Of a DNA stretch of 64,000 nucleotides, positions 1-35,139 are shown one piece after another. Under the pieces are notes generated by a model that made no database searches, was not told the DNA's origin, and saw nothing but the letters and a program-made list of their open reading frames with translations. The position numbers and the translations under genes were made by a program. How positions within the stretch are numbered: position 1 is the stretch's first letter; each line of letters opens with the position of its first letter. This DNA is from an uncultured Bacilli bacterium (GTDB lineage Bacteria > Bacillota_I > Bacilli_A > RF39 > UBA660), in the NCBI GenBank assembly GCA_949425635.1, contig CASPWD010000003.1:124001-188000 (forward strand). Reading direction: 5' to 3'.

Positions 1-56
1 AGTGGGAAAATCCCCTGTATGCGACAGGGAGTCAATGGTTCGAATCCATTTCAAAG
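1..56 (+). tRNA. partial tRNA-like gene cut by the window edge; anticodon uncertain
   Basis: Anticodon-type arm CCCTG-TATGCGA-CAGGG and T-arm AATGG-TTCGAAT-CCATT; 5' end missing; U33 appears to be A. Confidence 0.5.
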
Positions 57-102
57 GCAAGTCTAAAATATATAGGCAGAATTCACTATATAGAGATTAG
101 GC

Positions 103-141
103 AAAAAGATGCTGAGAGCTGCAGAAATCAAGCATCTTTTT
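103..141 (+). terminator. intrinsic terminator-like hairpin
   Basis: AAAAAGATGC ... GCATCTTTTT perfect 10 bp stem ending in a T run. Confidence 0.5.
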
Positions 142-145
142 AATA

Positions 146-219
146 TAGTCATTTAGTTTAGTAGGAAAAATTACTTTACTAATGTAAGGAGAGGTTGGTT
201 CGAATCCAACAATGGCTGT
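146..219 (+). tRNA. tRNA-like gene, degenerate anticodon arm (loop TTACTAA)
   Basis: Acceptor TAGTCAT/ATGGCTG with wobbles, T-arm GTTGG-TTCGAAT-CCAAC. Confidence 0.5.
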
Positions 220-231
220 AAATAAAAATAG

Positions 232-323
232 GGCATAGTGGCAGAGTTTGGTTTAATGCACCAGTCTTGAAAACTGGCAATCCAGAAATGGGTTCCTAGG
301 TTCAAATCCTAGCTATGTCGCCA
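232..323 (+). tRNA. tRNA-Ser(UGA)
   Basis: Acceptor GGCATAG/CTATGTC, anticodon arm CCAGT-CTTGAAA-ACTGG, long variable arm, T-arm CTAGG-TTCAAAT-CCTAG, encoded CCA. Confidence 0.9.
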
Positions 324-5434: not shown

Positions 5435-5466
5435 TTGACAAATTTTAAAACTTATAGTAATATAAT
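5435..5466 (+). promoter_or_regulatory. sigma70-type promoter, conserved-spacer family
   Basis: TTGACAaattttaaaacttatagTAATATAAT. Confidence 0.75.
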
Positions 5467-8351: not shown

Positions 8352-8385
8352 TGTTGACAGAGTTGTTTTAAAAATTCTGTCAACA
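8352..8385 (+). terminator. hairpin, possible terminator or attenuator
   Basis: TGTTGACAGA ... TTCTGTCAACA. Confidence 0.45.
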
Positions 8386-8411: not shown

Positions 8412-9218
8412 ATGGAAAACAGAAAGACAATTAAATGGATTGTATTAGGTATAATTTTAATAGTTGCAGTAATAGTATTATTTAATTCATTTAAAACAAT
8501 TCCAACAGGATGTGTTGGTGTAAAGACCCAATTTGGGAAAGTACAGAACGATGTATTACAAGAAGGACTAAATGGTAAAATACCATTTATAGAAAAAATT
8601 GTATTAGTAGATTGCAAAACAAAGAAAATAGATGCTACATCTGAAAGTAGCACCAAAGATTTACAAACAGTATCAGTAACAATAGCATTAAATTATAATG
8701 TAAGAAAAGACACAGCAAATAAATTATATAGAGAGGTTGGTACAGACTTTGAAAATATAGTTATAAATCCTGCTATATTAGAGAGTGTTAAGAGTGTAAT
8801 GGCACAATATACAGCAGAAGAGTTAATAACAAAAAGAGCAGAAGTATCTTCAATGATTAGAGAATCATTAACAAATAAAATAGATAGTAGAGGAATTACT
8901 ATAACAGAATTTAATACAACAAATATAGATTTTAGTGATGCTTTTAACGCAGCAATAGAAGCAAAAGCAGTTAAACAACAAGAGGTAGTAACTGCACAAG
9001 CAGAATTAGAAAAACAAAAAATTCAAAATGAAAAGGAAATAAGTATTGCAGAAAAAGATGCAAAAGTAATGGAACTACAAAATAATCAAATAACAGATAA
9101 GACATTACAATTAAAAGAATTAGAAATTAAACAAAAAATGATTGAAAAATGGAATGGACAATTCCCTACTACTATGATGGGTGAGAATACTTCAGCTTTA
9201 TTCAATATAAGTAAATAG
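8412..9218 (+). CDS. SPFH/prohibitin-like membrane protein
   Basis: N-terminal TM helix then IPTGCVGVKTQFGKV, ILESVKSVMAQYTAEELITKRAEVSSMIRESL, Ala/Glu/Gln-rich coiled coil EAKAVKQQEVVTAQAELEKQKI. Confidence 0.88.
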   Translation: MENRKTIKWIVLGIILIVAVIVLFNSFKTIPTGCVGVKTQFGKVQNDVLQEGLNGKIPFIEKIVLVDCKTKKIDATSESSTKDLQTVSVTIALNYNVRKDTANKLYREVGTDFENIVINPAILESVKSVMAQYTAEELITKRAEVSSMIRESLTNKIDSRGITITEFNTTNIDFSDAFNAAIEAKAVKQQEVVTAQAELEKQKIQNEKEISIAEKDAKVMELQNNQITDKTLQLKELEIKQKMIEKWNGQFPTTMMGENTSALFNISK

Positions 9219-9229
9219 AGGTGATATAA

Positions 9230-10033
9230 ATGGCAAAAGTTAGTTTTAAAGATATAGAACATGTTCTACCAGATAATATGATGTGGTTGGAAGACAGAAC
9301 AATATTATTAACTAAAGCAGGTTCAGTTATATATGGAACAAATGTAGAAACATCTGATACTGATTATAAGGGTGTATGTATTCCACCAAAAGAATATTAT
9401 TTAGGATTAAAATCTATAAATGAATATAATAAGTCTGGTGGTAAAAATTTTGGAGAACATAATACAAAAGAAGATATTGATATAGTAATATGCCATATAA
9501 ATAAATTTGTTAGAGACGCTATGCAAGGTGTACCAAATAATATTGATATACTATTTTGTAGAGATGAAGATATAATTCATATAGATGATTTTGGAAAAGA
9601 GTTAAGAAGTATAAGAAAAGAATTTTTATCTAAGGAAATATATAAAAAGTTTTGTGGATTTGCAATGTCACAAAGGTATAAACTAGATATAAAGAAGCAA
9701 AATGGAACTGGCAGACAAGATTTAGTTGAAAAATTTGGTTATGATACTAAATTTGCTTATCATGCTATAAGATTACTATATTGTGCAAAACAAATATTAT
9801 TAACACATGATTATTGTTCTTACAGACCAGAAGAAGAGAGAAAATTATTATTAGATATAAGAGCAGGAAAATATACATTAGAAGAAATATTTGATATGTT
9901 TGACAGATTAGATAAAGAGATACACCAATACTATGATGAAAGTACATTACAAAAGACACCAGATTATCATAAAATAAATAAATGGTTGATAGATATAAAT
10001 GAGAAAGCTTTAAATTATGATTTTACAATATAG
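9230..10033 (+). CDS. RlaP-like predicted nucleotidyltransferase (polymerase beta superfamily)
   Basis: TKAGSVIYGTNVETSDTDYKGVCIPP (GS...SDxDYKG) and DIDIVICHINKFV. Confidence 0.8.
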   Translation: MAKVSFKDIEHVLPDNMMWLEDRTILLTKAGSVIYGTNVETSDTDYKGVCIPPKEYYLGLKSINEYNKSGGKNFGEHNTKEDIDIVICHINKFVRDAMQGVPNNIDILFCRDEDIIHIDDFGKELRSIRKEFLSKEIYKKFCGFAMSQRYKLDIKKQNGTGRQDLVEKFGYDTKFAYHAIRLLYCAKQILLTHDYCSYRPEEERKLLLDIRAGKYTLEEIFDMFDRLDKEIHQYYDESTLQKTPDYHKINKWLIDINEKALNYDFTI

Positions 10034-10071
10034 TTCTTCTTTATCAGGTTTCCCTAGAAACTATTTTAGAT

Positions 10072-10124
10072 AGACAGTTGATATAAGTTTATAAGTATAA
10101 ATTTCAACTGTCTTAAATTTTTTA
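10072..10124 (+). terminator. intrinsic terminator
   Basis: AGACAGTTGA ... TTCAACTGTCTTaaatttttt. Confidence 0.65.
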
Positions 10125-10143
10125 ATAAATTTTGAAAAAACCC

Positions 10144-10172
10144 TTGACATATTTTAAAACTTATAGTATAAT
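10144..10172 (+). promoter_or_regulatory. sigma70-type promoter, conserved-spacer family
   Basis: TTGACATATTTTAAAACTTATAGTATAAT. Confidence 0.85.
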
Positions 10173-10215
10173 ATAGGTATAATAAGTAAATAATAGTTTT
10201 AAGGAGGAGTATATA

Positions 10216-11004
10216 ATGTCAAATTCAAAGATAAAAACATTAAGTGATAGAATGAAAGATTATGAATCTGTATCAGATGTTAAACTTACAAAAAGAACAC
10301 CTGTTATAGTAAGAATAGATGGTAAAGCATTCCACACATTTACAAGAGGTTTAGATAAACCATTTGATGAAATACTATCACAAGTAATGCAATATGTTTG
10401 TGAAAATCTTATATTGAGTGTTCAAGGGTGCAAGTTAGCATATACACAGTCTGATGAGATAAGTTTATTATTAACAGACTGGGATAAATTAACTACTGAT
10501 AGTTATTTTGATTATAGATTACAAAAGGTATGTTCAGTAATAGCATCAGCAGCAACAATGTATTTTAATAAGTTTGTAACACAAAAGGTATTAGCTTGGT
10601 CTGGTTATGCAAATTCAGATGAACCAGAGAATTTAGACTTATTTAATAAATGGCAAAAGAAAATGGGTATAGCAATGTTTGATGCAAGAGCATTTAATAT
10701 ACCAAAGGAAGATGTATGTAATTACTTTTTATGGAGGCAACAAGATGCATCAAGAAACTCAATACAATCACTAGGACAATCAAAGTTTAGTCAAAAACAA
10801 CTTGATAAGAAAAATACAAGTGATATACAAGATATGTTAATGGAAAAGTACAATATAAATTGGAATAATTTAGAAACTAAATGGAAAAGAGGATTTTGTG
10901 TATATAGAAAAGATGAGGGAATATTCTGTGATACAGAAATACCATTATTTAATAAAGATAGAGATTTTATAGATAAATTTTTATTAGTACCAGAAGAAGA
11001 GTAG
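10216..11004 (+). CDS. tRNA-His guanylyltransferase-like (Thg1/TLP) 3'-5' polymerase family
   Basis: VIVRIDGKAFHTFTRGLDKPFDE and AYTQSDEISLLL motifs. Confidence 0.92.
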   Translation: MSNSKIKTLSDRMKDYESVSDVKLTKRTPVIVRIDGKAFHTFTRGLDKPFDEILSQVMQYVCENLILSVQGCKLAYTQSDEISLLLTDWDKLTTDSYFDYRLQKVCSVIASAATMYFNKFVTQKVLAWSGYANSDEPENLDLFNKWQKKMGIAMFDARAFNIPKEDVCNYFLWRQQDASRNSIQSLGQSKFSQKQLDKKNTSDIQDMLMEKYNINWNNLETKWKRGFCVYRKDEGIFCDTEIPLFNKDRDFIDKFLLVPEEE

Positions 11005-11028
11005 TGGGCTTAACCCACCAAATTATAT

Positions 11029-11104
11029 GCTTCATTAGCCAAGTTGGTTAAGGCAACAGATTGCAAATCTGTGACCATTGGTTCGAATCCAATATGAAGC
11101 TCCA
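11029..11104 (+). tRNA. tRNA-Cys(GCA)
   Basis: Acceptor GCTTCAT/ATGAAGC, anticodon arm ACAGA-TTGCAAA-TCTGT, T-arm ATTGG-TTCGAAT-CCAAT, CCA encoded. Confidence 0.93.
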
Positions 11105-11113
11105 ACCCTATAT

Positions 11114-11188
11114 AGGAGTGTAGTGTTAATGGTAGCACAGCAGTCTCCAAAACTGTTTGTCTGGGTTCAAATCCTAGCACTCCTGCCA
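11114..11188 (+). tRNA. tRNA-Trp(CCA)
   Basis: Acceptor AGGAGTG/CACTCCT, anticodon loop CTCCAAA, T-arm CTGGG-TTCAAAT-CCTAG, CCA encoded. Confidence 0.9.
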
Positions 11189-11223
11189 AATATATAAGAT
11201 TATAATATAAGAAGGTGAGGTTT

Positions 11224-12120
11224 ATGATAGAGTGGAAAACAATCGAAAACAACCAAGATTATGAAGTATCTAATATGAGTATAGTTAGAGAAAAATCAAC
11301 AGGTAAATATTTAAAACATTATACTTTATCTACATCGGGAGGTTCTAGAACAAAAGTATATTTGAGAACAGGTACTCGAAAAGGTTTTAGATTAATAGAC
11401 CTTGCTAATTTAGTTGCAGAATATTTTGTAGATAATAAAGATGGTTTAGATGTTGTTGATTTTAAAGATGGTGATTCTTCTAATTGTTTAGCATCTAACT
11501 TATATTATAGAAATAAAATTACAGATAGAGGTTACTTTCATAAAGTATATGAAAGTAAAACAGACGAAGAATATATAAAGGAAGCAATAGCAGATTATAG
11601 AAAAAAGTATCCTAATGATTATTTTATGGAAGATAAAGATTTGGAAATTGAATATCAAATGAGAATGTTAGATAATAGAAATAAAGGTTTTGCAAGAACA
11701 ATGCACTTGTTTGACCATGCAAAAATAATACATAATCAAAATTCAAGTAAAATAGAAGAATATATAGATGATACATATAGTAATACTACTGTAGATATAA
11801 TAAATGATGAATTTATACTTAATGAGATAGATAAAATAGAAAATAATTCTAGAATAGTACAAAAGTTAATATATCATTTGAATAATACACTTACAACAAG
11901 AGAATCTTTTGTATTAAAGTACAGGTATGGTCTATTACCAGATATATATTATAAAGATATACCAAAAATAAAAGATGGAACAAGTTTAAATAATGCACCA
12001 TATACATTAGAAGATACAGGAAGGCAACTAGGTGTAACAAAAGAAAGAATAAGACAAATAGAAGCAAGGGCATTTAGGAAATTAAGACACCCATCAAGAT
12101 TAGGAGGTAGCTATGAGTAA
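11224..12120 (+). CDS. chimera: NUMOD4/HNH-like N terminus and sigma-70 region 4 C terminus
   Basis: [32 protein letters not shown]...[12 protein letters not shown]...[21 protein letters not shown] terminus [15 protein letters not shown]...[33 protein letters not shown]. Confidence 0.85.
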
Positions 12121-12295
12121 TTTTATATGTAATAAGTGCAGAACTTGTAGTAAATTTCCATTTTGTAATGTAACTGAAAGTAAGGATGGAAATTGTGGAG
12201 ATTATATACAAAGAGATAGATATAAGTTTATTAAGAATAGATTGAAAAGCATAGATTATGATACATATTTAAAGGAGTTGTGTAGATATGAGTAA
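12113..12295 (+). CDS. small Cys-rich protein
   Basis: [13 protein letters not shown]. Confidence 0.65.
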
Positions 12296-13193
12296 TAAAG
12301 CACAATTTAATAAAAATTTAAAAATAGATTATAATTTACCTATAATAAGTATTCCAAGTAATAAGACAATACCATTTTTAAAGTGGTATTGTGAAGATAT
12401 TTCAAATACTAGATTAAGTGATATTCCAAAAGTATTTGAAGAAGGATATATAACTATTTCTAATATACCTTGTGAATTTATAAATAATTGTAAAAGTGAA
12501 TTTATAAAGAAGATGGCTAAGGAATGCAAAACAACATATAGAGTAATTGAAGAAGAATTAGAACGTGATGTATATTCAGTTATGTTAAATGATATAGTTA
12601 TAAGTTACAAGTTTATAGATAATCTTCCAAACATAACTATATTTTCAAGTATAACAGAACAGCAAATAATAAATATTCCATTGCAGAAATATAGAGATGT
12701 TGATTATAAGTTGTTATCATCTTTGGGAGATATTAGTGGGATTGGCAATACAATTATTATAGAAAATGCTTCATGTGCAATAGATGGAGAACATGAGTTC
12801 CAAAATTCAATGATGATGATATATACAGGTTTATTTATTAGTGCAATGTGGTATATGACTTTATATAAAAATAAATATAGATATGAACAACAGTTGTCTA
12901 AAGAAGAAGTAAAAGATACTATTTTAAATAGAAAAAGACCTAAAAAAGTATCAAATACTAAGATTATTACAACAAGTTTTTATGATTTATCTAAAGCACC
13001 TCAATCAAAAGTACAAACTATGATTAAAAGAAGGGAAGGATTTGAATATTCTCATCAATTTGATGTTAAAGGGCATTATAGACATTACAAAGATGGTAAA
13101 ATTGTATTTATTGAAAGTTATGTAAAGGCAAAGGATAAGCCAAAATTACAAAGGAATATAATATTAAATCCAGAAGAAAAAGGAGGAAAATAA
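12288..13193 (+). CDS. hypothetical protein
   Basis: 301 aa ORF with RBS. Confidence 0.75.
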   Translation: MSNKAQFNKNLKIDYNLPIISIPSNKTIPFLKWYCEDISNTRLSDIPKVFEEGYITISNIPCEFINNCKSEFIKKMAKECKTTYRVIEEELERDVYSVMLNDIVISYKFIDNLPNITIFSSITEQQIINIPLQKYRDVDYKLLSSLGDISGIGNTIIIENASCAIDGEHEFQNSMMMIYTGLFISAMWYMTLYKNKYRYEQQLSKEEVKDTILNRKRPKKVSNTKIITTSFYDLSKAPQSKVQTMIKRREGFEYSHQFDVKGHYRHYKDGKIVFIESYVKAKDKPKLQRNIILNPEEKGGK

Positions 13194-13194
13194 G

Positions 13195-13365
13195 ATGAAT
13201 AGAGTATTAGGAATAATTATATGTATTATAATATTTATAATAGGAAATGGAATATTATATAAATATAAAGACGATGTTGCTGCAGGTATGGAAGATTTTG
13301 CTGGAATATCTGCAATAGTGATAAGTATTATAGGAATTTTAGCATGTATAGGAGGCAGTTTTTAA
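13195..13365 (+). CDS. small two-helix membrane protein
   Basis: MNRVLGIIICIIIFIIGNGILYKYKDDVAAGMEDFAGISAIVISIIGILACIGGSF. Confidence 0.6.
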   Translation: MNRVLGIIICIIIFIIGNGILYKYKDDVAAGMEDFAGISAIVISIIGILACIGGSF

Positions 13366-13976
13366 TGATAAAGTTTAAATTAGAGGGTAAATGTTATAAT
13401 GTAAAAGATATTGAAATAAATTCAGGGGTAACTGTTTTAACAGGACCTAATGGTAGTGGAAAGACTTATGCTTGTACCCAAATTTGTGATTATTTAGATG
13501 AGCAGAAAAAGAAATATATAAATGTAAATGTGTATGAAGAAGGAAAACATAAAGCAGATAGTTTTACATTATCAGGTGATATGCAGTCATTAGCAAAACA
13601 TATAGTAAGTTCTGAGGGGCAAAGAGTATTTGATACACTTGTAGATATAAATGTTCCAAAGATAGGTGATTATGTAAGACAATTAGTTGATGGTAATATT
13701 AAAGAAGGATATATTTTAATTGATGGTTGTGATAGTGGTGTTAGTATAGATTTAATGCTTACTTATAGGTCATTATTCAGGTTGATATTAGATGATTGTA
13801 AAGAAAAAAATATTGATATACATATTATAATAACTTCTAATAGTTATGAATTAGTATATGATTATGATTGTATTTGGATACCAACGATGGGACATTATAA
13901 ACGAGGTGGAGAAGCAGATGGTTACAATTTGTGGAGAAAGATGTATGAAGATGTTTATAAGGATAGAAATAAATAA
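13365..13976 (+). CDS. P-loop ATPase (ABC/AAA-like)
   Basis: GVTVLTGPNGSGKTYACTQI Walker A; GYILIDGCDSG Walker B-like. Confidence 0.75.
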   Translation: MIKFKLEGKCYNVKDIEINSGVTVLTGPNGSGKTYACTQICDYLDEQKKKYINVNVYEEGKHKADSFTLSGDMQSLAKHIVSSEGQRVFDTLVDINVPKIGDYVRQLVDGNIKEGYILIDGCDSGVSIDLMLTYRSLFRLILDDCKEKNIDIHIIITSNSYELVYDYDCIWIPTMGHYKRGGEADGYNLWRKMYEDVYKDRNK

Positions 13977-13978
13977 AG

Positions 13979-14209
13979 GTGATGATAATGAAGATACCAA
14001 AAAGAATACTAGATTTGATTACAGAGATAGAGGAAATAGGAAGTAAATTAACATTATTGGAAAGTGAGTTATATTCATGGTTAGATAATAGTAATATAGA
14101 TACAGAGTTATTTGATTCTAATAAAGAAATATGTATTGACCATGATTTAGATGCACTATTTCATAGTAATAATGGAACTGATTTAATAGAAGATTTAAAA
14201 AAGTTATAA
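13979..14209 (+). CDS. hypothetical protein
   Basis: ORF with aaggtgatgat RBS. Confidence 0.6.
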   Translation: MMIMKIPKRILDLITEIEEIGSKLTLLESELYSWLDNSNIDTELFDSNKEICIDHDLDALFHSNNGTDLIEDLKKL

Positions 14210-14215
14210 AAATAC

Positions 14216-14244
14216 TTGACATATTTTAAAACTTATTATATAAT
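14216..14244 (+). promoter_or_regulatory. sigma70-type promoter, conserved-spacer family
   Basis: TTGACATATTTTAAAACTTATTATATAAT. Confidence 0.8.
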
Positions 14245-14273
14245 AAACAAAAACAGAGAGGTAGGAAATTTTA

Positions 14274-16729
14274 TGAGAAATTTAGTGGTTTTAAGGGGAT
14301 GCCCAGGTTCAGGTAAATCAACCTGGATAAAAGAAAATGGTTTAGAGCAATATACAATAAGCCCAGATAATATAAGAATGATGGCATCTGCACCAATATT
14401 GACAGAAAATGGAACAGATGCAACTATATCACAAGAAAATGAATCTTATATATGGTCATTATTATATGAATTATTAGAGAAAAGAATGAAAAATGGAGAT
14501 TTTACTATAATAGATGCAACACATAGCCGTTCAACAGATTTTAGTAGATATAATTCATTATGTGAATCATATAGATATAGAAAGTATGTAGTATCATTTA
14601 CAGATGTACCAAAAGAAGTATGTATAGAAAGAAATCATCAAAGAAATGCCTATAAAAGAGTTCCTGATGAAGTAATTGATAAAATGTATGCAAGATTTGA
14701 AACTCAAGAAAAGACAAGTGGTTGGGTAGATATTCCTAGAGATAAGTTTTGGGAAACATTTAGTAATAAAGAATTTGATTTTAATGAGTATAAAAGAATA
14801 CATATTATAGGAGATATTCATGGTTGTTTTAACCCATTAAAAGAATATATACTAAAACAAACATATACAGAATATCAAGAAGAAGTAAATTCTCAAAATT
14901 TACATCAATTTTTAAATGATGAAGATGCTTATATATTTGTAGGGGACTATTTAGATAGAGGACTACAAAATAAGGAAGTATTAGAATTTATTATTAGTAT
15001 ATGTCAAAAAAGTAATGTACTTTTATTAGAAGGAAATCATGAAAGATTTATTTGGTATTGGGCAAATGAACTGGATAGCGAGATTAAAAGTAAAGAATTT
15101 ATGAACTTTACATTACCACAAATTAAATCAATAGACCCATCAAGTATGAGAAAGTTTTATAGAAAACTAGGACAAATGGCTTATATAAACTTTAAAGGAC
15201 AAACATATTTTGTATGTCATGGGGGATTGAATACTATCCCAAATAATTTACCTTTAATATCAACAAGTCAAATGATACATGGTGTTGGAGCTTTCAAATT
15301 CCCTATTGACGAATCATATACAGAAAACATGAAAAATAAATCAATAATACAAATACACGGACATAGATATATTGCACCAGAAAAACCAATGAGAGATTTA
15401 CCTTTATCATTCTCATTAGAGGATGGTGTTGAATTTGGTGGAAATCTAAAAGTAGCAGAATTAACAAATAAGGGTATATTTTTCCATAGTATAAAAAATG
15501 ACTTATATAGGGATACATCTTGGGAAGAACACCAACAAATAGTAAATACACAAGAAATAAATATAGAAAATATTGTAGATAGATTAAGAAATAATAGAAA
15601 TATAAGAGAAAGTGTATTAGAAGGTGGAATATCATCATTCAACTTTACACGTAAAGCATTTGAAAAAGATAAATGGGATAAGGAAACTGTTAAAGCAAGA
15701 GGTTTATTTATAGATACTGTAAATAATAAAATAGTAGCAAGAGGTTATGAAAAGTTCTTTAATATAAACGAACAAGAATCATGTAGATTATTTAATTTAA
15801 AGAGATTATTTGATACAGATGAAGAAGTTGTTGCTTATAAAAAATATAATGGTTTCTTGGGCATTTTAAGTTATTATAATGATAATTTACAATTTCATAG
15901 TAAATCTTCAAATTGTGGAGAATATGCAATGTATTTTAAAAATTTATTTTATAATACATTTACAGAAGAACAAATAGACAATATTACAGTATTTCTAAAA
16001 AATAATAATATGTCAATGACATTTGAAGTTATAGATTTAGAAAATGACCCTCATATTATAGATGAAAAAGAAAGTAGAGTTGTCTTATTAGATATAATTC
16101 ATAATAAAGTAGATTTTGAGAAGATACCTTATGATGGATTAATGCAAATTGCTAAATCGTTAAAATTAAAAGATACAGATTATAAGCAAGTATATATTAA
16201 ATTTGATACATATAGGCAATTAACTGAATTTTATGAACAACATAAAAATCAAAATGAATTAATAGACACAGATATAGAAGGCGTTGTAATTGAATGTGGA
16301 ACATTTATGACAAAGCTTAAATTTAGTTATTATTCTTTTTGGAAGTCTATGAGGACTGTTTATGAAATGACTATGAATGGTAAAAATGTAGAATTAAGAA
16401 AACTATATAATGCAACTGCGAATTATTTTTATAAATTTATTAAAGATAAATATGATGATAAATGTGTTGAGTATATGAAAATATTAGATAATATAAATAA
16501 TGATTTTGTAAAATTATCTGATTTAAAACAATGTGAACTAGCAGAAGATGGTGAAAGTATAATTATGCAAAAACAAATAAAAACTAGAACAGAAACAGGT
16601 TATACTTGTGAAAATATAAAAGAAAATATTAATATTGGTAAAGAAAATATCAGTAAGATAGTTGAACTAAGGAAAAAAGATAATATTATTTCATTAAGAA
16701 ATGAATATTATGCAAATGGAGGAGTATAA
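14274..16729 (+). CDS. fused polynucleotide kinase - metallophosphatase - RNA ligase (Pnkp-like)
   Basis: Kinase VVLRGCPGSGKSTW; phosphatase GDIHGC, GDYLDRG, GNHERF; ligase KYNGFLG nucleotidyl-Lys motif, TFEVIDLEN, IEGVVIE, TKLKFSYYSFWK. Confidence 0.92.
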
Positions 16730-30767: not shown

Positions 30768-33323
30768 ATGGCAAAGAACCCAGTATCATATTATGATGGA
30801 GAAAATATAACTTGTTTTCCATCATCAAATGCTAAAGATTTTGGTAAATTACATACAGAATTTAATGAAGCAAGATTTGTAACCAGAGTTGCAAAAAAGA
30901 ATTTCTGTATTAAAAATCCAAGTTTTGTATTGAGTGCTGAAAATGATATAAAAACAAATAAAACTGTATTACAAATATCAGAAGGCGAGGCATCTATTAA
31001 TGGTATGGATATTATAGCATCAGTACCAATTCAAATAGACCCTCCAGCAGAGGCAGGTAAATGGTATGTTGCTTTTAAATTAGGAAGAGATAATCTAGGA
31101 AGAGATTTTACAGTTGGAAAATATAAATTAAAAGGAAATGTACTAGGAGATTTAACAGTAGGTGTACAAAAAACATTTGAAGGAATGTATTTAACTTATT
31201 ATAATGAAAGATTAGATGAGGGAAATGAAGACCCAGATATGCTTTATTTAGGTAGTATAGAATGGGATGGTAATGATTTTACAAATATAGAGGAAGACCC
31301 TCAAAAGTATTCCAGAATAGAAGCAGAAGATGTTGGATGTTATATAAAAGACCCAAAACATGCTGATGTTTATTATATGGATTTACAAAGTTGGTTATAT
31401 AAAGTTCCAGACTGGTATTTCTCTAAAGAAGGGGATGTTTGTTATGGTGAAATCAATGTAGTTCCAGGAAGAGGAGCACATCCATCTCCATATCAAGACC
31501 CAATGCCTGGATTTATATTAAGAGCTTATGATAAGAATACTACTAAAATGGTGTTAAAAGCATCATCATTAGAAAATGCTACATTAATGAGATATGGTGA
31601 TATAAATAATGATGGTGAGATAAATGACGCTGACTTAGCATTATTGACTGATTTTGTAAATGGTGTAAAAACACCAACACCATTAGAAAAAGAACTAGCC
31701 TGTGTTAGTGGAAATAGACAAGGTGATTTAACAGAAAAAGATATAGAATTATTAAGAAATTATGTACAAGGTTCTAGACCAGATTTAGTAAAAGGCGAGA
31801 AGAAATTAGTAGGAAAAACTGGAGTTATATATGGTATAGGTGATGTAACAGAAGCAATCGAAATATATGCATCAAATTCTAAAGTAGAAATTGATATGAA
31901 CCATGCTCAAATATATTCTAATTTTCAAGATGATATATTCCATATTCATAACCCAGAAGGTATATGTATTGAATCAGGTAGTGGGGATATTAAGTTAGAA
32001 GCATATAATGATGTTTATATGAAAAGATTTGATAGTAATGCTCCAACATTAAGATTAACAGGTAATGTTTTAAGAATGACAGACCCTAATACACCAGACT
32101 TAAAACATGAGTGGGAATTGATAAAAGATGGTACAAATCAAAAGGCACATACAACAACAGGAAAAACAATACAAGAATATGACCTAAATAATAAATTCTA
32201 TAATATACTTGCAAATGATACAATTAGGATGAATGTATATCCTCAATTCTATATGCAAAATGCAAGGAATAGATGTATAGGTACATTGTATTTTGGACCT
32301 GATGATGGAAATGATGATAATTATTTTAAAAGAAATGAAATACAATTAGACAGTAATCAAGATGATAATGTAGATTTAAAACTAACAGATAGGACAATTT
32401 TCCTAAGAGATGAGAATGGTGGTAGTACAAATAGTTATATTAAAGTTGGTGGAACTAATGGTAATAATGGTGTAACAGCTTATTCTAATGGAAATATGGA
32501 ATTGAAGAATACAACAGGAATATCTGAAATTAAGTTTACAGGAAATAGTGCAGCAAATACAGCAAGAATATGGCATGAACATAATAATAACATATTACAC
32601 ATTGATACAAACCTTCATATAAAAAATAATATAACAGCAGATGGAGATGGATATTTTAATGGTGGAGATGTTTATATCAAAAATCAGGGTGGAACATCAA
32701 ACCTATATTTCACAGATGGTACTAAAACATATAAAATCTATCATTTGAATAATGAAGATAAATTACACATAAATACAAACTTAAATATGGATAACAATAA
32801 TATAGAAAATGTAAACAATATCTATGCTAATACAAGTATAAATGTAGGACCAAAAGGCTCTGACAACAAGTATCCAATAACACTAGATAAAAATGGTAAT
32901 ATAGATGCAAAAGGAGATATAACAGGAAAGAGAGTTTTTGGTGCTGTTTATAATGACTATGGTGAAATATTTAGAAAAGATAAGGATGAAATTATTGAAT
33001 ATGGGGATATAGTTTGTTTAAGAGAAGATGGATTAGTACACAAAGTAGAAACACAAGAAGATTTATTTAATCTAATTGGAATATGTTCAAATACAATAGG
33101 TATGTGTTTAGGTGGTGCAGAATTAGAAGAAGATGAAAAATGCCCAGTTGGTATAGTAGGTAAGATATGGGTTAAAACAGATGATATGGATTTAAAGCCA
33201 GGAGACCATGTAAGAGCTACAAGTAATGGAACAGTAGTAAAGAATAAAGAAAAGGCATTTGAAAAGTTTGGTATAGTAATGCAAAAATATGAAAATGGAA
33301 AAGTTTTAATATTTGTTAAATAA
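30768..33323 (+). CDS. tail fibre with internal dockerin-like domain and Peptidase_G2-like C terminus
   Basis: YGDINNDGEINDADLALLTDFVNG...RQGDLTEKDIELLRNYVQG; C terminus VFGAVYNDYGEIFRKD...GDHVRATSNGTV. Confidence 0.7.
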   Translation: MAKNPVSYYDGENITCFPSSNAKDFGKLHTEFNEARFVTRVAKKNFCIKNPSFVLSAENDIKTNKTVLQISEGEASINGMDIIASVPIQIDPPAEAGKWYVAFKLGRDNLGRDFTVGKYKLKGNVLGDLTVGVQKTFEGMYLTYYNERLDEGNEDPDMLYLGSIEWDGNDFTNIEEDPQKYSRIEAEDVGCYIKDPKHADVYYMDLQSWLYKVPDWYFSKEGDVCYGEINVVPGRGAHPSPYQDPMPGFILRAYDKNTTKMVLKASSLENATLMRYGDINNDGEINDADLALLTDFVNGVKTPTPLEKELACVSGNRQGDLTEKDIELLRNYVQGSRPDLVKGEKKLVGKTGVIYGIGDVTEAIEIYASNSKVEIDMNHAQIYSNFQDDIFHIHNPEGICIESGSGDIKLEAYNDVYMKRFDSNAPTLRLTGNVLRMTDPNTPDLKHEWELIKDGTNQKAHTTTGKTIQEYDLNNKFYNILANDTIRMNVYPQFYMQNARNRCIGTLYFGPDDGNDDNYFKRNEIQLDSNQDDNVDLKLTDRTIFLRDENGGSTNSYIKVGGTNGNNGVTAYSNGNMELKNTTGISEIKFTGNSAANTARIWHEHNNNILHIDTNLHIKNNITADGDGYFNGGDVYIKNQGGTSNLYFTDGTKTYKIYHLNNEDKLHINTNLNMDNNNIENVNNIYANTSINVGPKGSDNKYPITLDKNGNIDAKGDITGKRVFGAVYNDYGEIFRKDKDEIIEYGDIVCLREDGLVHKVETQEDLFNLIGICSNTIGMCLGGAELEEDEKCPVGIVGKIWVKTDDMDLKPGDHVRATSNGTVVKNKEKAFEKFGIVMQKYENGKVLIFVK

Positions 33324-35110: not shown

Positions 35111-35139
35111 TTGACATATTTTAAAACTTATAGTATAAT
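35111..35139 (+). promoter_or_regulatory. sigma70-type promoter, conserved-spacer family
   Basis: TTGACATATTTTAAAACTTATAGTATAAT. Confidence 0.85.

Follow-up and report, generated by a model that had tools for sequence, protein, structure and literature searches.

What function is served by a group of predicted RNA end-processing enzymes encoded around two tRNA genes in a large phage genome? The question is raised by a 64,000-nucleotide stretch of DNA (the window), bases 124001–188000 of contig CASPWD010000003.1 (C3), one of the 29 contigs of assembly GCA_949425635.1. The genes encode an RlaP nucleotidyltransferase (NTase), a Thg1-like 3'-5' polymerase and a single polypeptide uniting a kinase, a phosphatase and an RNA ligase. 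The answer that we consider likely is that this jumbo phage carries an RNA-repair island, by which tRNAs cleaved in the course of infection would be restored. Among the known ways in which phages counter host anticodon nucleases, tRNA repair is the most familiar. The core features of the island, all of which lie on the + strand, are as follows (window coordinates).

9230..10033, +, RlaP nucleotidyltransferase, 267 amino acids (PF10127; phrog_388; AlphaFold2/Foldseek polymerase-beta (Pol-beta) NTase fold)
10216..11004, +, Thg1-like 3'-5' polymerase, 262 amino acids (PF04446; phrog_4717; 4kgk; metal-site residues D35, D80 and E81)
11029..11104, +, tRNA-Cys(gca) (ARAGORN; Rfam, 66.9 bits)
11114..11188, +, tRNA-Trp(cca) (ARAGORN; Rfam, 59.4 bits)
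14273..16729, +, fused enzyme of 818 amino acids, comprising a kinase (residues 3–143), a calcineurin-type phosphatase (175–368) and an Rnl1/Trl1-type RNA ligase (474–687) (Pfam; phrog_8238; PDB profile; motifs)

In the proposed mechanism, the phosphatase domain of the fused enzyme would remove a 2',3'-cyclic or 3'-phosphate, its kinase domain would phosphorylate the 5'-OH, and its Rnl1/Trl1-type domain would seal the break by ligation. RlaP would restore missing nucleotides at 3' ends and the Thg1-like protein would do so at 5' ends, using the opposite strand as template, while the phage tRNAs may substitute for tRNAs that are beyond mending. For the ligase chain and the Thg1-like protein we infer the chemistry by analogy with characterized relatives; we infer further that tRNA would be the substrate in vivo and host anti-phage RNases the source of the damage.

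C3 is 220,052 bp long and carries an exact 61-bp direct repeat at both ends, because of which it is probably a circularly closed jumbo phage, presumably complete, with a unique length of ~219,990 bp and nearly all genes in one orientation. Several IMG/VR virus contigs contain stretches identical to C3. The assembly was binned as a bacterium, which may be the phage host.

Enzyme families and catalytic residues

A first-pass annotation of the window, made from the sequence, had proposed three RNA end-processing families around two tRNAs, with their catalytic motifs present. The Pfam searches that it recommended assigned all three products to families above curated cut-offs, and residue alignment found the motifs intact in RlaP, the Thg1-like protein and the fused enzyme.

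RlaP matched PF10127 with an E value of 1.7e-17 (64.4 bits against a curated cut-off of 23) and phrog_388 with 222 bits. Residues G31 and S32, together with D43 and D45, are invariant in the alignment and correspond to the GS...(S)DxD metal site. A sequence search of the PDB with RlaP returned no relative. Its AlphaFold2 model (predicted local distance difference test score, pLDDT, 84.8) was matched by Foldseek to Pol-beta NTases such as ANT4', Tam41 and HalB, with E values of 5.5e-5 to 1e-3 and template modelling (TM) scores of ~0.3–0.5, and membership of the Pol-beta NTase fold is supported by this model.

The Thg1-like protein matched PF04446 with an E value of 3e-31 (108.5 bits against a cut-off of 29.2) and phrog_4717 with 279 bits. 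Its nearest solved relative is the Bacillus thuringiensis Thg1-like protein BtTLP (4kgk; E 1.2e-61), which scored 212 bits against 39 bits for human Thg1 (3otb), a profile-score comparison bearing on whether it is of the TLP or the eukaryotic subtype. The active-site carboxylates are kept, D35, D80 and E81 aligning with D30, D75 and E76 of BtTLP, in which the D75A substitution cripples the enzyme. Unlike BtTLP, the protein is phage-borne and contains an insertion of ~30 residues. Our literature search found no role assigned to phage Thg1.

In the fused enzyme, the AAA_33, Metallophos (PF00149) and RNA_lig_T4_1 (PF09511) domains each exceeded the curated Pfam cut-off, and the ligase domain belongs to the Rnl1 family (PF09511, 114 bits). 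The P-loop and the GDIHG/GDYLDRG/GNHE and KYNG motifs are all intact, and the residues retained include K15/S16 of the kinase region, D181/H183/D225/N255/H256/H316/H364 of the phosphatase region, and K524/G527, E669 and K681/K683 of the ligase region. The gene that the first-pass annotation had placed at 14274 is real, with its start corrected to the ATG at 14273; a longer, TTG-initiated open reading frame (ORF) at 14216 takes in promoter sequence.

By sequence, the fused enzyme is a member of the known phage family phrog_8238, which it matches over residues 1–747 (673 bits). Members with the same three-domain architecture include Staphylococcus phage Twort ORF008 and proteins of SPbetaL2, Fusobacterium phages Fnu1 and FNU3, and Lactobacillus phage Lb338-1. 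Five aligned relatives are 32–42% identical to the fused enzyme, which differs from the family in being ~70 residues longer near the C-terminus and in having unlike neighbour genes. Stretches covering at least 80% of the enzyme occur in 97 phage records. An alignment search found 80 virus loci and 79 loci in bacterial genomes, many of them in Lachnospiraceae and Bacillus, where a single-sequence scan of bacterial genomes had given no match. No additional ligase of the RtcB or Rnl2 type (PF09414) was found on C3.

The kinase and calcineurin-type phosphatase domains of the fused enzyme are nearest to the solved structures 4gp7 and 4j6o (annotated as 'Metallophosphoesterase') of Clostridium thermocellum Pnkp domains, and in this it resembles bacterial Pnkp-Hen1. 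Its ligase domain, in contrast, is nearest to the solved tRNA ligases 9qw7, 6n0v and 6n67 and is Rnl1/Trl1-like rather than Pnkp-type; Hen1 is therefore not expected. As the first-pass annotation had noted for the immediate surroundings of the ligase, no Hen1 methyltransferase is present among the neighbouring genes scanned, an absence with which the failure of the enzyme against the full-length bacterial Pnkp model TIGR04075 is consistent (104 bits against a cut-off of 750, over residues 3–321 only). In phage T4, kinase-phosphatase and ligase are two separate proteins and the phosphatase is of the HAD type. The predicted chemistry is the same as that of T4 Pnkp and Rnl1 acting against PrrC, and the ligase is likewise of the Rnl1 family, whereas the C3 phosphatase is Metallophos (PF00149) and no PrrC was seen here. 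It is established that the T4-type system repairs PrrC-cut tRNA-Lys; phage tRNAs able to evade nucleases have been proposed as well (PMC10264068).

Recurrence and transcription of the cluster

The first-pass annotation had raised conservation of the cluster in related phages as a check, and the cluster does recur: the fused gene, RlaP and Thg1 lie within ~10 kb of one another in three other lineages (L066, L073/L076 and L091/L093), and in L073/L076 they are consecutive. All three families are also present, although dispersed, in Bacillus phage G and Fusobacterium phage Fnu1.

Linkage was assessed across 44 Thg1 lineages, defined at 70% Thg1 identity on virus contigs of at least 40 kb, some of which share an ancestral neighbourhood and are thus partly non-independent. 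An RlaP-type NTase lies within 10 kb of Thg1 in 20 of the 44, compared with 8.5 expected for one random copy per contig (P 4e-5); the NTase profile spans two subfamilies, and with both in every contig the expectation rises to ~16 lineages. A test independent of gene prevalence found the Thg1-NTase gap to be below 1.5 kb in 10 of these 20 lineages against 3.3 expected (P 5e-4), and in 7 of 11 for the canonical NTase subfamily alone (P 5e-4), with the 1.5-kb threshold picked after the gaps were seen. A Kolmogorov-Smirnov test over all gaps gave P 0.004.

The transcriptional signals around the island genes are the following.

8352..8385, +, terminator-like hairpin 5' of the SPFH gene described below
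10073..10113, +, hairpin with a T-rich tract after it, 3' of RlaP, a candidate terminator (from folding of 10034–10140; uncalled by the scan tool)
10144..10172, +, promoter match TTGACA-N17-TATAAT (12/12), an exact copy of a 29-bp repeat
14216..14244, +, promoter match TTGACA-N17-TATAAT (12/12), with 2 mismatches to the 29-bp repeat
506–534, 5435–5463, 10144–10172, 14216–14244 and 35111–35139, copies of the 29-bp element in the window, with ~25 other sites in C3

The Thg1 and fused-gene starts lie ~30–45 bp 3' of a perfect TTGACA-N17-TATAAT. The 29-bp promoter-like element, TTGACATATTTTAAAACTTATAGTATAAT, has a conserved spacer and occurs in ~30 copies in C3, against 0–1 expected per strand; the copies are intergenic and mostly 40–60 bp 5' of ORFs. 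In view of this phage-wide abundance, a repair-specific promoter was rejected. Because Thg1 and the ligase gene have their own promoter copies, the repair genes appear to form several transcription units sharing a promoter type. A single-operon model was rejected on these separate promoter matches and on the hairpin and T-rich tract after RlaP, and the 'layered' island of the first-pass annotation, as a single co-expressed unit, is not supported.

The wider island and its neighbours

The repair-related stretch extends to ~21 kb once upstream genes are counted; the first-pass annotation overlooked several related genes just beyond the window as well as the SPFH gene directly 5' of RlaP. These features are as follows.

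C3:119595–120272, candidate HAD-domain protein of the 'Swiss army knife RNA repair' type (truncated piece, 24.9 bits against a cut-off of 27.5, sub-threshold)
C3:121190–122734 (L008:1190–2734), second RlaP-like NTase, fused to a calcineurin-type phosphoesterase, 514 amino acids (phrog_388 and phrog_547)
C3:123300–124323, tRNA array reaching into window 1–323 (ARAGORN, whole contig)
1..58 (C3:123988–124058), +, tail of tRNA-Ala(tgc) (ARAGORN, whole contig)
146..219, +, tRNA-like gene whose anticodon is irregular (2 bases called), with no encoded CCA (ARAGORN; Rfam RF00005, 41.2 bits)
232..323, +, tRNA-Ser(tga) (ARAGORN, Rfam)
8412..9218, +, SPFH/Band-7 protein (PF01145, 120 bits), 11 bp 5' of RlaP

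The NTase-phosphoesterase fusion is not covered to 80% by any phage record, and its predicted structure is confident in the NTase half, not in the phosphoesterase half. In L015 an NTase gene and a phosphoesterase gene are separate but adjacent. A large-phage repair neighbourhood occupies 5.6–16.9 kb of L015/L016, with tRNAs, a DUF2828/DUF7788 RNA-binding protein, an MVP-shoulder protein, Thg1, NTase, a phosphoesterase, RNase_T and an RNA ligase. Irregular members of the tRNA array include a 73-nt 'tRNA-Leu', an Rfam-only tRNA (C3:123752–123823) and, near C3:123837, a degenerate tRNA-like stretch.

The SPFH protein may possibly act as a scaffold. Its role as a conserved Thg1 partner was considered and dropped, SPFH genes occurring near Thg1 in just 4 of the 44 lineages, with no enrichment. 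A homologue of 53% identity is encoded in L191 (CATLFA010000001.1, 10001–12306), a contig of a Clostridiaceae metagenome-assembled genome with a window-like order of tRNAs, SPFH, homing-endonuclease-like gene and fused ligase; the ligase frame is broken there, by a real break or an assembly error.

An intact second Thg1 homologue of 282 amino acids is encoded at C3:95864–96712 (L006:15864–16712). RVKQ replaces RIDG, HNE replaces SDE, and the WRQQD region is lost. Because two of the three active-site carboxylates are gone, this homologue is probably catalytically inactive, as judged from its sequence. It adjoins a LemA gene, as does the active Thg1 in L066, L207 and L241. Among virus contigs, second homologues of this kind were found only as identical copies from the same phage. 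A limited literature search turned up no description of linkage between Thg1 and RlaP, nor of a phage Thg1 lacking catalytic motifs; priority is not claimed.

Between the tRNAs and the fused gene, window 11215–12120 encodes an N-terminal homing-endonuclease-like part (phrog_959) joined to a sigma-70 region 4 domain, possibly a phage sigma-like regulator. Elsewhere in the window (30768–33323), an 851-amino-acid protein combines Peptidase_G2 autocleavage and dockerin type I domains, which is unusual in a phage protein.

Repair and its alternatives

The repair interpretation is supported by profile placement, solved relatives, intact catalytic residues and the Pol-beta fold of RlaP; by the recurrence of clustering, the tRNAs within the island and the arrangement in Fusobacterium phage FNU3, where five tRNAs follow the fused gene; and by published work, in which the same system-level inference was made for jumbo phages (PMC7824862) and Thg1-like proteins (TLPs) of bacteria and archaea preferred the repair of 5'-truncated tRNA in vitro (PMC6471195). 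Several observations weigh on the other side. Separate promoters and unrelated intervening genes leave no single operon, and among the solved folds nearest to RlaP, all at low TM-scores, are aminoglycoside NTases and HalB, the NTase of Hailong. To our knowledge RlaP has never been assayed, and a literature search found no characterized activity for it; nucleotide addition to damaged RNA is in the literature a prediction only (PMC7824862). No damaging host nuclease was identified, and the co-binned genome is that of a putative host. A PrrC-type anticodon nuclease, the example cited in the first-pass annotation, is not supported as the particular target: that genome yielded only a sub-threshold match to AAA_13 and none above the cut-off.

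An alternative that we regard as rather improbable is that the genes serve maturation or homeostasis of the phage's own unusual tRNAs, at their 5' and 3' ends, instead of repairing nuclease damage. At least 8 tRNAs are encoded by the phage, several of them lacking CCA and having irregular arms; Thg1 lies directly 5' of tRNA-Cys and tRNA-Trp, the stretch between them contains no called terminator on the + strand, and eukaryotic Thg1 members mature the 5' end of tRNA-His (PMC6471195). However, ARAGORN found no tRNA-His in the whole of C3, ordinary maturation of tRNAs that lack introns does not involve a kinase-phosphatase-ligase, and only 42 of 158 fused-gene loci have a tRNA in their flanks (up to 10 kb on each side). 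It is very unlikely that RlaP and the NTase-phosphoesterase fusion act in signalling, making or removing nucleotide messengers of host immunity and leaving RNA to the ligase and Thg1. The Foldseek matches of RlaP do include HalB and CdnE-type NTases, and the joining of the second NTase to a phosphoesterase would suit such a role, but the fold similarity is low (TM ~0.4–0.5 for HalB and 0.2 for CdnE), proximity to Thg1 and RNA ligases fits work on RNA, and the distribution of RlaP mirrors that of RNA ligases in jumbo phages (PMC7824862). Least probable, in our judgement, is that useful but unrelated genes are adjacent by chance, with no joint role. Their separate transcription units, the commonness of RlaP (1333 of 50,697 phage records) and the wide spacing of the three families in Bacillus phage G would all be compatible with this, as would the proximity of the fused gene to Thg1 in whole contigs, which was set aside as stand-alone evidence because it was not significant (Fisher P 0.06). 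The three-gene cluster nevertheless recurs in other large phages, and the Thg1-NTase gap test is independent of how common the genes are.

The interpretation as tRNA repair is not new. In jumbo phages, tRNAs, Rnl1, kinases and phosphatases, RlaP and sporadic Thg1 have been described as countering host RNases through repair (Iyer et al. 2021, PMC7824862), with RlaP the most prevalent NTase, co-distributed with RNA ligases, and calcineurin-type phosphatases in few. C3 has the components of this arsenal (a genome of >200 kb, ligase, RlaP and tRNAs, with Thg1 optional), and the same countering of tRNA-cleaving host effectors is proposed. The counter-defence by tRNA repair put forward in the first-pass annotation is thus plausible and in line with the published inference, without being novel. 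C3 differs in that its genes lie within ~7.5 kb, kinase, phosphatase and ligase form one chain, and the phage additionally encodes a second Thg1 that lacks catalytic motifs, along with an NTase-phosphoesterase fusion; the island is a well-supported further example with unusual details.

A more specific extension, which we hold to be doubtful, is that large phages have a conserved paired end-restoration module, Thg1-like at 5' ends and RlaP-type at 3' ends, working with the one-chain ligase, and that the second Thg1 (C3:95864–96712) is a regulatory or RNA-binding subunit. If this is true, the paired module and ligase could rebuild cut tRNAs that lack nucleotides on either side of the break, and acceptor-stem or wobble-excision damage, which T4-type sealing alone cannot reverse, could be mended. 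A compact, recurring island in which all of the predicted end-processing activities are encoded provides a defined gene set for reconstitution, and allows one to ask whether phages reverse damage with nucleotide loss, beyond the reach of simple sealing.

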